From: Lentimicrobium sp. | GTDB taxonomy: Bacteria > Bacteroidota > Bacteroidia > Bacteroidales > Lentimicrobiaceae | Length of the DNA: 49,193 bases | Assembly: GCA_024709105.1 (NCBI GenBank) | Contig: JANJXJ010000113.1 | Coordinates: forward strand, 1-49,193 | Direction of reading: 5' to 3' | Shown: one piece after another, positions 426-1,932 of the stretch | Numbering within the stretch: the stretch's first letter is position 1 | Layout of the letters: every line of letters begins with the position of its first letter | Made by a program: the position numbers and the translations under genes | Notes under the pieces: generated by a model | Told to the model about the DNA's origin: nothing | Databases searched by the model: none | What the model saw: only the letters and a program-made list of their open reading frames with translations

Positions 426-731
426 TCAATTATGTATTCGTTTATAATTCATAATATAAAAAACGGGACAAAATAATGCATTAAAAAAAACAAGAACAAA
501 CAATGATCCTGATTGTTTTAATCGAATGGCATTTCTTATGCAAAAAACCCAGAAAACAAGCGTTGCAATTGCCAACGGATAATAAATATATAACAACATA
601 TAGCCCCTGAAGAAAACTTCCATTATATTTTCATACTTGTTGTGGTTCAGAGAAAAAAGAATAAATGGGACAACGAGATACAATATAGTTATCAAGTTTA
701 CACCAAAAAGTAGATTCCAGAGTTTTTTCAT
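426..731 (-). CDS. Small three-helix membrane protein next to an RHS tip, possible immunity protein
   Basis: This is a 101-aa hydrophobic protein with about three predicted membrane helices: residues near 5-28, 42-65 and 74-95. I do not recognise a named family. The start chosen is ATG at 731, six bases after the stop codon of the upstream RHS-tip gene; a TTG at 737 would add two residues. The tight spacing implies co-transcription and translational coupling. In RHS systems the gene directly after the variable tip usually encodes the cognate immunity protein, often a small membrane protein when the toxin acts on membranes. That role is inferred from position only. Confidence 0.6.
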   Translation of the reverse strand: MKKLWNLLFGVNLITILYLVVPFILFSLNHNKYENIMEVFFRGYMLLYIYYPLAIATLVFWVFCIRNAIRLKQSGSLFVLVFFNALFCPVFYIMNYKRIHN

Positions 732-737
732 TTGCAA

Positions 738-1523
738 TCAATTAGGTTCTTGAACTTCTATTTGTTTTTCTTGGTTCTCTTTTCCTCCTTTACCCAATTC
801 TTCATCTGACATTGCTACCTTTAAAGCTGGGATATAACGACCTTCAGCCCCGACAGTAACTTCAAATCCAACAAGAAGAGGATTTATAGAAAAACCAGCA
901 GCTTCAACTTTTATTGTTTCTTCTGTTTTTTTACCTTCCGAATCTCTCGTTGTAATTTCATTTGTGAGTAATCTTTGAACTTCTGTTATAGCTTTAGCAA
1001 AAGCAGGGTGTTCGGTTATTTTATATTGTTCAATCGTGCTTCCGCTCCAAAAGACAGCAGATCCATTAGCATGGTAATTTATATTATTTTTTTCACCATC
1101 AGTATCAATACTCCATCCAGTCGCAGAATTATATTGCAAGTAAAATCTTCGACTTCCTTCTACAGCAGCTGCCTGTAGCTTGAATCCAAGAGATAAACCT
1201 AAAATAGATAAAGATCCTCCCAAATGAGGCCCAAAAGATACTTTTACATCAATATAAAATTGGGCATTAGGAATTATTTCCGGTCCGAGCCCCATATAGT
1301 CAATATATTTAATGGGGTTATTAATTGCATATGAATATGGTGTTTGGAAATGGAAGGTATCGGCGAGCATATCAATTACATGAAACCTCCCCAATTGCGC
1401 ATCATACATCCTAGCCCCATAATCCAACCAATCCAGACCCAGCTCATCCTGAAACACCTCACCCAGCCCTCTCCTCAAGGAGAGGGTCCAATAACGGTAA
1501 GATTGTGAGTTAATATTCAGCAT
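738..1523 (-). CDS. Orphan RHS repeat-associated core C-terminus with variable tip (5'-truncated)
   Basis: Residues about 25-80 carry the end of the RHS core: a GARMYDAQLGRF motif, then a PYSYAINNPIKYID motif that closes the shell before the variable tip. Complete RHS proteins are usually over 1000 aa; this one is 261 aa. The first ~22 residues are encoded by repeat copy B and are not RHS-like, so the RHS gene appears to have lost its 5' part where the repeat sits. The ~180-residue tip (from about residue 80) is glycine- and beta-rich with an amphipathic or hydrophobic start and ends in a charged tail. I recognise no toxin family or catalytic motif in it. It is followed six bases later by a small membrane-protein gene. 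It may be an expressed orphan tip or a pseudogene fragment. Confidence 0.65.
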   Translation of the reverse strand: MLNINSQSYRYWTLSLRRGLGEVFQDELGLDWLDYGARMYDAQLGRFHVIDMLADTFHFQTPYSYAINNPIKYIDYMGLGPEIIPNAQFYIDVKVSFGPHLGGSLSILGLSLGFKLQAAAVEGSRRFYLQYNSATGWSIDTDGEKNNINYHANGSAVFWSGSTIEQYKITEHPAFAKAITEVQRLLTNEITTRDSEGKKTEETIKVEAAGFSINPLLVGFEVTVGAEGRYIPALKVAMSDEELGKGGKENQEKQIEVQEPN

Positions 1524-1610
1524 TTTGTTGCAAAGAAGTAAAATTTAACATTTTAAGTAGGATTCAGCTCCCTTCTCCTTGAGGAGAAGGGCGGGGGGAT
1601 GAGGTGCATC
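1460..1610. repeat. Copy B of the paired-hairpin repeat (REPIN/MITE-like)
   Basis: The left arm at about 1462-1490 contains the palindrome CCCTCTCCTCAAGGAGAGGG. The right arm at about 1571-1608 contains CCCTTCTCCTTGAGGAGAAGGG and ends GGATGAGGTG. The arms are inverted relative to each other, so the whole element has terminal inverted repeats opening with CACCTCA. The ~80-bp centre matches copy C at about 2067-2150 closely, including AATAACGG and the CAGCATTT-GTTGCAAAGAA region. The RHS-tip reading frame starts inside this copy, and the DUF559 frame ends at its right edge. Confidence 0.85.
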
Positions 1611-1932
1611 AAGTTTCAGCAAAATCAATAATACTTTTTAAGACCTTATCCATATTATTGAGTACATCTTCATTTCTGAATCTGATAACTTTAAGACCAA
1701 CACTTTCTAGTTCACTTGTTCGATTTATGTCACGTTCTTTAACTTCAGGATTGTCATGAATACCTCCATCAACCTCTATTACAAGCCCTAATTCATGACA
1801 ATAAAAATCAAGTACCAGTTTTTGAAAGGGATGCTGCCTCCTGAATTTTAATCCACCACATTTTCTGTTTCTGATTTCTTTCCATAGAAGCATTTCTGCT
1901 TCAGTCCCGGTTTTTCTTAGGCTTTTAGCCAA
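1609..1932 (-). CDS. DUF559 domain protein, Vsr/restriction-endonuclease-like fold
   Basis: The 107-aa protein covers a DUF559 domain: a basic amphipathic start with TEAEMLLWKEIRNRK, then LKFRRQHPF, the core LDFYCHELGLVIEVDGGIH, and a final VIRFRNEDV. The D and E-x-D residues in the core correspond to the acidic residues of the very-short-patch-repair/restriction nuclease fold, so DNA nuclease activity is plausible but unproven. The frame stays open upstream to a TAA near 1990, and that stretch (HHNAPAATHELAKSLRK) looks like genuine family sequence, yet it contains no ATG. The only available start near the domain is TTG at 1930-1932. The 5' end may therefore be damaged. The gene sits between two copies of the island repeat. 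Confidence 0.75.
   Translation of the reverse strand: MAKSLRKTGTEAEMLLWKEIRNRKCGGLKFRRQHPFQKLVLDFYCHELGLVIEVDGGIHDNPEVKERDINRTSELESVGLKVIRFRNEDVLNNMDKVLKSIIDFAET

Follow-up and report, generated by a model that had tools for sequence, protein, structure and literature searches.

Does a truncated RHS gene that ends in an unfamiliar C-terminal tip, and that is followed within a few bases by a gene for a small membrane protein, encode a toxin together with its immunity protein? The question arises at positions 426-1523 of contig JANJXJ010000113.1 from Lentimicrobium sp. (GenBank assembly GCA_024709105.1), where both genes lie on the minus strand. The window, that is, the stretch of DNA that was analyzed, is this whole contig of 49,193 nucleotides (contig C99 of genome G000, called the own genome in the following). 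Comparative genomics establishes that the tip and the small gene form a recurring pair, and we consider it likely that they constitute an orphan (cryptic) cassette of an RHS toxin and its immunity protein, which probably acts at the cell envelope.

Two genes on the minus strand at positions 426-1523

The longer open reading frame (ORF) at 738-1523 (-) comprises 261 amino acids when read from ATG 1523 and ends with a TGA stop at 740-738. Its residues 21-79 match the NCBIfam model TIGR03696 (Rhs_assc_core) with an E value of 1e-10 and 41.9 bits (cut-off 32.5), and a hidden Markov model (HMM) for RHS core ends, from whose seed the window was absent, matched the same frame with an E value of 1.6e-16. 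The sole other NCBIfam row, TIGR03981, was far below its cut-off (E 0.18) and covered residues 28-68, which lie within the RHS part. The RHS core end (1290-1454, minus strand) closes with the residues NNPIKYIDYMG, and nothing more of the RHS gene is present. It is followed by a tip of 183 amino acids plus the TGA stop (738-1289, minus strand), a putative toxin domain with relatives in genomes G316 and G161. The TIGR03696 match and the 183-residue remainder thus bear out the RHS core end and the tip of about 180 residues that the first-pass annotation had described. In the long ORF, this description of an RHS end plus a tip holds except for about the first 23 residues, which are contributed by a genomic repeat abutting the RHS fragment at about 1455-1629 (-; copies 86-91% identical) and not by an RHS gene.

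Six bases separate the stop of the 261-codon ORF from ATG 731, the start of a gene for a small three-helix membrane protein of 101 amino acids (426-731, minus strand), a putative immunity protein. The start proposed by the ORF tool, TTG 737, would give 103 amino acids and abut the preceding stop directly; ATG 731 is the more likely start, and with it the six-base spacing noted earlier holds. The predicted protein has three hydrophobic segments of 19 residues, and a single-sequence AlphaFold2 (AF2) model gave three helices (pLDDT 73.9, pTM 0.34), in agreement with the three-helix membrane protein that had been proposed.

In 500 dinucleotide shuffles of positions 301-1700, the longest ORF averaged 73.8 amino acids with a maximum of 167, and none (0/500) attained 261 amino acids. 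A frame of 103 amino acids, the length of the small gene, was attained in 47 of the 500 shuffles, so that the reality of the small gene has to be judged by its homologues and not by its length. We regard both ORFs as real; the first-pass annotation had not given their strand.

Recurrence of the tip and the small gene as a pair

Relatives of the tip were encountered in two other genomes. In G161, which belongs to the same order, locus L011 comprises an orphan RHS end with its tip (255 amino acids), a gap of 6 nucleotides and a gene for a membrane protein of 114 amino acids, and in G316, which belongs to the same class but another order, locus L012 comprises an RHS cassette with its tip (488 amino acids), a gap of 3 nucleotides and a gene for a membrane protein of 103 amino acids. 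The window tip shares 43% identity over 148 amino acids with the tip from G316 and 28-31% identity with the tip from G161. A homologous three-helix gene is therefore located 3' of the tip in both outside loci, or in three of three when the window is included, with gaps of 6, 6 and 3 nucleotides. The pair in G316 is flanked on both sides by RHS ends with other tips, and in G161 a second RHS end lies about 3.4 kb away.

At the sequence level, the anatomy of the locus and its homology are established, as are the order and spacing conserved in three genomes. The gene order, in which an RHS end leads into the tip and the small gene comes next, recurs with 3-6 nucleotides between the latter two and is found among other cassettes; all of this is in keeping with a polymorphic toxin tip and an immunity protein. 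The first-pass annotation had read this as the classical order of a toxin tip and its immunity gene and had suggested looking for co-occurrence across genomes; the two genes do behave as a pair, since both outside relatives of the tip carry a small-gene homologue 3-6 nucleotides downstream, and the roles of toxin and of immunity protein are putative ones. The pair, carried by three genomes, extends the RHS repertoire by a putative toxin/immunity family that has no name in the libraries used.

For the small proteins, comparison of the window protein with the one encoded after the tip in G316 gave 30% identity and an E value of 4e-10 (a single comparison), and comparison of the proteins from G316 and G161 an E value of 4e-7. 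Scores were also compared with those of 1000 shuffles that preserved hydrophobic and polar positions. For the window protein, the number of shuffles per 1000 that reached the score was 0 with its homologues at L012, L072 and L070, 1 at L067, 2 at L068, 8 at L069 and 9 at L075; for the L012 protein it was 0 with each of those at L011, L068 and L072. Judged by these shuffles, the homology of the small genes exceeds what shared hydrophobicity would produce.

Distribution of the tip

Nothing significant was found for the tip in the libraries used, in line with the earlier remark that it has no known toxin motif: there was no row at E ≤ 1 in Pfam, NCBIfam or PADLOC (the NCBIfam scan covered window proteins only), and the tip profile A4 had 0 matches at E ≤ 1 among PDB sequences. 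A weak Pfam row, DUF5640, appeared for one of the three tips (E 0.038) and was discarded as the tip family for its weakness.

Among the genomes searched, the tip is rare and patchy. It was found in 2 of 295 genomes of the order sample (the own genome and G161), in 2 of 395 of the class sample (the own genome and G316, with a two-row tip profile) and in 1 of 395 of the phylum sample (the own genome only). These samples overlap and were drawn from larger groups, 1919 genomes being searched in total with repeats counted, and G316 is the only genome of its order in the searched set. A three-row tip profile returned 3 of 393 genomes of the order sample at E ≤ 0.01, namely the own genome, G161 and G032. 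The last of these (E 0.005) was rejected as a chance match, its ORF of 467 amino acids resembling by eye a TolC-type efflux protein and lacking an RHS part. In 18 congeners, 12 of which had a completeness of 90% or more and a contamination of 5% or less, neither the tip nor the small gene had a match at E ≤ 0.001, as is expected of exchangeable cassettes.

The tip matched nothing in plasmids, viral contigs and genome contigs (a search that excluded phages and included no E. coli genomes); the window small gene likewise matched nothing in phages, nor did the small protein of L069 in plasmids. An origin from a phage, a plasmid or a virus was discarded, since the tip, the small gene and a different tip from genome G081, described below, had no matches in the sets searched.

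A small-gene family that accompanies more than one kind of tip

The small gene had no match above threshold in Pfam, NCBIfam, PADLOC or PDB sequences. Weak Pfam rows were DUF4149 for the window protein (E 0.14) and TMEM138 (E 0.23) and CopD (E 0.79) for other members, and all three were discarded as the family of the small gene. A profile built from the three small proteins of the window, G161 and G316 (A5) matched at least 40 of 393 genomes of the order sample at E ≤ 0.01. At E < 3e-5, a cut of our own choice, it matched nine of the 393, the own genome and G161 included, and these matches span most of the profile. The remaining 31 genomes have mostly partial matches; the surroundings were read for two of them, G1111 and G085, and contained no RHS end in the part read.

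Ten places were followed, the nine at E < 3e-5 and G316. An RHS end lies near the small-gene homologue at five of the ten, namely in the window, G161, G316, G081 and G113. RHS ends of the own genome and of the other four seeded the core-end HMM, so that those match it by construction. When the three loci that make up the profile (window, G161 and G316) are left aside, two of six assessable places are linked to RHS. This tie to RHS tips at half of the places followed offers a function for otherwise unknown small membrane proteins. By way of observation, G203 (L071, 3328-4041) encodes a protein of 237 amino acids whose first part fits the small-gene profile and which has an extra C-terminal part; it lies on a 4.2-kb contig without an RHS end.

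The two places outside the profile, G081 and G113, carry another tip. G081 encodes an RHS protein of 1415 amino acids, with CUB and DUF6443 above the cut-off, RHS_repeat below it and, by eye, a signal-peptide-like start; it ends in a different tip, and a small-gene homologue follows on the same strand 1.2 kb downstream, past ORFs that look transposase-like by eye. An N-terminal export part is present only in this carrier. The first-pass annotation had suggested checking whether full-length RHS proteins carry the window tip followed by the small gene; this one has a small-gene homologue downstream, but its tip is not that of the window. Within the family of G081, this tip was found in G081 alone (1/5 genomes), and plasmids and viral contigs contained no match to it.

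The tip in G113 is split by transposase-like ORFs and precedes the small gene. The pieces of this tip match the G081 tip with E values of 1e-4 and 7e-6 (single comparisons), and profile A5 matched the small protein (L072) with 96.8% probability. The locus (G113:C122) has four RHS ends in 12 kb, three of them with different tips followed by a small gene, the transposase-interrupted tip being one of these three. By eye, the window-type tips and the G081/G113 tip look alike, but neither shuffles nor profile comparisons supported a common ancestry, which is not claimed here: per 1000 shuffles, 197 reached the score of window versus L068, 939 that of window versus the L072 piece, 6 that of L011 versus L068 and 335 that of L012 versus L068, and profile comparisons of the two kinds of tip gave 0.5% and 1.9% probability. 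This raises the question of how one family of membrane immunity proteins can partner tips that share no detectable sequence.

Proposed function and rival explanations

A full RHS shell with an N-terminal export part is absent from the window and from L011, and L012, which retains more of the RHS protein than these two, is still without the N-terminal part. No second RHS core end was found in the 49-kb window (core-end HMM, E ≤ 1e-3). With neither shell nor export part, and with a repeat directly beside what is left, this is an orphan cassette and not a complete RHS toxin.

We infer toxicity, immunity, an inner-membrane location, envelope action and a reservoir role in the following way. The tip would be the effector domain at the C terminus of a polymorphic RHS toxin that lacks its shell and export part here, and the gene of 101 amino acids would encode the immunity protein of this tip, a three-helix protein of the inner membrane. 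Carried by an intact RHS protein, the tip would be delivered to a neighboring cell and exert its effect at or within the envelope. Neutralization in the membrane would fall to the three-helix protein, either by binding the tip or by guarding its site of insertion. As the small partner is predicted to be an integral membrane protein, action at the envelope is probable, with neutralization presumably taking place at the inner membrane. In its own genome, where the tip has no export signal, the cassette may protect the cell itself or be kept as a reservoir from which the tip can recombine onto an intact RHS gene.

Several observations weigh against this reading. The window tip has no hydrophobic helix (no segment of 19 residues at a Kyte-Doolittle value ≥ 1.6), and membrane insertion by the tip itself would be without direct support in the sequence. 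The z value of its amphipathic beta-moment is not clearly above shuffles (1.4, compared with 3.3 for L011 and 0.7 for L012), and the AF2 model from the lone tip sequence consists mostly of strands with a pLDDT of 40, too poor for use. The small proteins of the window and G161 are weakly linked when compared directly (E 0.037; 39 of 1000 shuffles reach the score), and their relation therefore runs through G316. Of the nine small-gene homologues that could be assessed, four lie in surroundings without an RHS end in the stretch read, those in G168 (9.0 kb), G211 (11.0 kb), G235 (12.0 kb) and G203 (4.2 kb); the tenth place, in G215, is not assessable because the homologue starts 57 bases from a contig end. 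Lastly, the core end of the window reads IDYMG and is without the DPxG autoprotease motif.

With regard to the tip, we think it quite possible, though short of probable, that the same toxin-immunity cassette encodes a toxin acting elsewhere, in the cytoplasm or periplasm and possibly as an enzyme, and that the three-helix protein blocks its passage through the inner membrane. The tips look soluble, having no hydrophobic segment; the two-helix proteins Imm-CdiI and Imm17 have been suggested to prevent toxin uptake at the membrane (Zhang et al., PMC3482391), and the ionophore toxins of contact-dependent growth inhibition (CDI) are described as using inner-membrane proteins as receptors (PMC11630599). 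On the other hand, no known enzyme family was found for the tip, and the alignment of the window, L011 and L012 tips has no invariant H, C or D, although three sequences are few.

The homologues without RHS bear on whether the small gene belongs to the tip at all. The first-pass annotation had held that a small gene found widely in unrelated contexts would speak against the pair, and this was found in part, at the four places named. Orphan immunity genes are, however, a familiar phenomenon, and homologues without RHS therefore lower the toxin/immunity claim only a little. It is very improbable that the small gene encodes a widespread membrane protein without relation to the tip and stands beside it incidentally, a view to which these four places and the sub-threshold DUF4149 row would lend themselves. 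A homologue lies within 3-6 nucleotides of the tip at each of the two independent tip loci, and the two assessable non-profile matches out of six that lie in G113 and G081 also come after an RHS tip, transposase-like ORFs aside, where chance placement would account for perhaps 1% of genes by a rough estimate.

The DPxG motif is also replaced at other core ends, reading IELEG in L011, IEMDG in L012, IDLWG in L068 and FDLDG at a neighboring, different tip of G316; it is present in five further RHS cassettes of the own genome (L004-L008) and at the G113 tip (LDPDG). The other G316 tip without the motif and the G113 tip with it indicate that loss of DPxG is not tied to the window-type tip alone. 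Should release depend on autocleavage at DPxG, tips without the motif may be set free in another way or remain attached. A missing DPxG motif, an RHS gene cut at a repeat without its export part, and small-gene homologues that persist alone elsewhere would also be expected of a dead remnant, in which the whole locus would be what is left of an old cassette that is no longer expressed, with at most the small gene under selection. This explanation appears unlikely to us: both reading frames are uninterrupted (261 and 101 codons), identities of 43% and 30% to the relatives in G316 are retained across an order boundary, and the equally short orphan of G161 is open as well. Old pseudogenes are not expected to keep their frames open, and a recent silencing would still be compatible with these data.

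Going further than an orphan cassette probably acting at the envelope, a beta-rich RHS toxin without hydrophobic helices might act on the inner membrane in a manner unlike that of helical pore-formers, and one three-helix immunity family might guard against several tips whose sequences show no detectable relation (the type of the window, G161 and G316 and that of G081 and G113) and persist alone as orphan immunity across the order; we put this forward as a speculation that is rather doubtful.

Comparison with known systems

Tsi5, the immunity protein of Tse5, is a membrane protein. Tse5 of Pseudomonas aeruginosa is a membrane-depolarising, pore-forming Rhs toxin (PMC10684867, PMC9637101), for which DPxG autocleavage is reported as the means of release (PMC10684867). 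The locus resembles the Tse5/Tsi5 pair in having an RHS-carried tip with a cognate immunity gene, the target of Tse5 being the membrane (PMC10684867). It differs in that the window tip profile matches no PDB chain (Tse5 being assumed to be present in the PDB set), that its core end is without DPxG and that its tip is without a hydrophobic helix, the latter arguing only against a helical pore.

In Salmonella Typhimurium LT2, recombination with a main rhs gene activates an orphan Rhs toxin fragment to which an immunity gene is linked (PMC3967940). Like this module, the locus consists of a C-terminal RHS fragment without initiation or export signals and linked to a putative immunity gene (PMC3967940); unlike in LT2, no other RHS core end lies on the 49-kb contig, and the likeness is one of description. 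For Rhs systems of Serratia, orphan immunity proteins have been described that may confer protection against effectors of non-self origin (PMC10539506).

For CDI ionophore toxins, the CdiI immunity proteins are typically about 30% identical, and the ionophore domains are predicted five-helix bundles (PMC11630599). The small gene diverges similarly, at about 30% identity, whereas the window tip has no hydrophobic 19-mers and an AF2 model of mostly strands, albeit at the low pLDDT of 40 given above. Imm17 and Imm-CdiI are two-helix membrane immunity proteins, the Imm17 type with WxW and R between the helices (PMC3482391); the small protein is likewise a small helical membrane protein, but with three helices and no Pfam family above the cut-off. 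The TANFOR/BaCT toxins of Bacteroidetes are modular toxins at the C terminus of their carrier, and the immunity gene next to them is diverse, BaCT being a DNase (PMC7073777), and they resemble the locus in this modular arrangement and differ in their carrier, which is RHS here; again, the likeness is one of description. A pore-forming toxin of a type VI secretion system is known from Bacteroidales (PMC12718326).

The first-pass annotation had proposed a membrane-targeting toxin family not described before. An RHS tip with a membrane immunity protein is a known kind of system and not new. No description of the tip/small-gene pair was found in the open-access literature searched by words, not by sequence; within this literature and the libraries used, the tip family and its three-helix partner look new.

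Repeats and further RHS cassettes of the own genome

Copies of the repeat abutting the RHS fragment, with 86-91% identity, are located at C201:203-379, C201:1-160 (partial) and, in the window, 2037-2213, and from these copies the boundary between RHS fragment and repeat was placed at about 1454/1455. By eye, the repeat at 1455-1629 and at 2037-2213 shows a palindrome. Full or partial matches occur on C201, C61, C90, C27 and further contigs, and a joint of repeat and RHS fragment that resembles the one in the window is also present on C61. Between the two copies in the window sits a DUF559 ORF (1609-1932, minus strand), overlapping the first copy by about 20 bases.

A search of the own genome for RHS ends, which was not a full census of RHS genes, returned six other places. 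Five of these (L004-L008) are RHS ends whose tips differ from the window tip, each with a small gene on the same strand (5/5), positioned from a 17-nucleotide overlap to 22 nucleotides after the tip; the sixth, on C61, is a fragment that runs out. The tip thus differs between cassettes within one genome, both in the own genome and in G316. Three of the tips (L004, L005 and L006 on C212, C171 and C72) appear by eye to contain an HExxH-like motif. The small gene behind each of them has a start that looks signal-peptide-like, also by eye, which makes these cassettes possible candidates for metallopeptidase toxin/immunity pairs. At the start of the contig (window 22-112), a 24-base unit (GTGGCCTACTTTACTCCGGAATGG) is repeated in tandem about four times, which we take to be, perhaps, the end of an insertion sequence.
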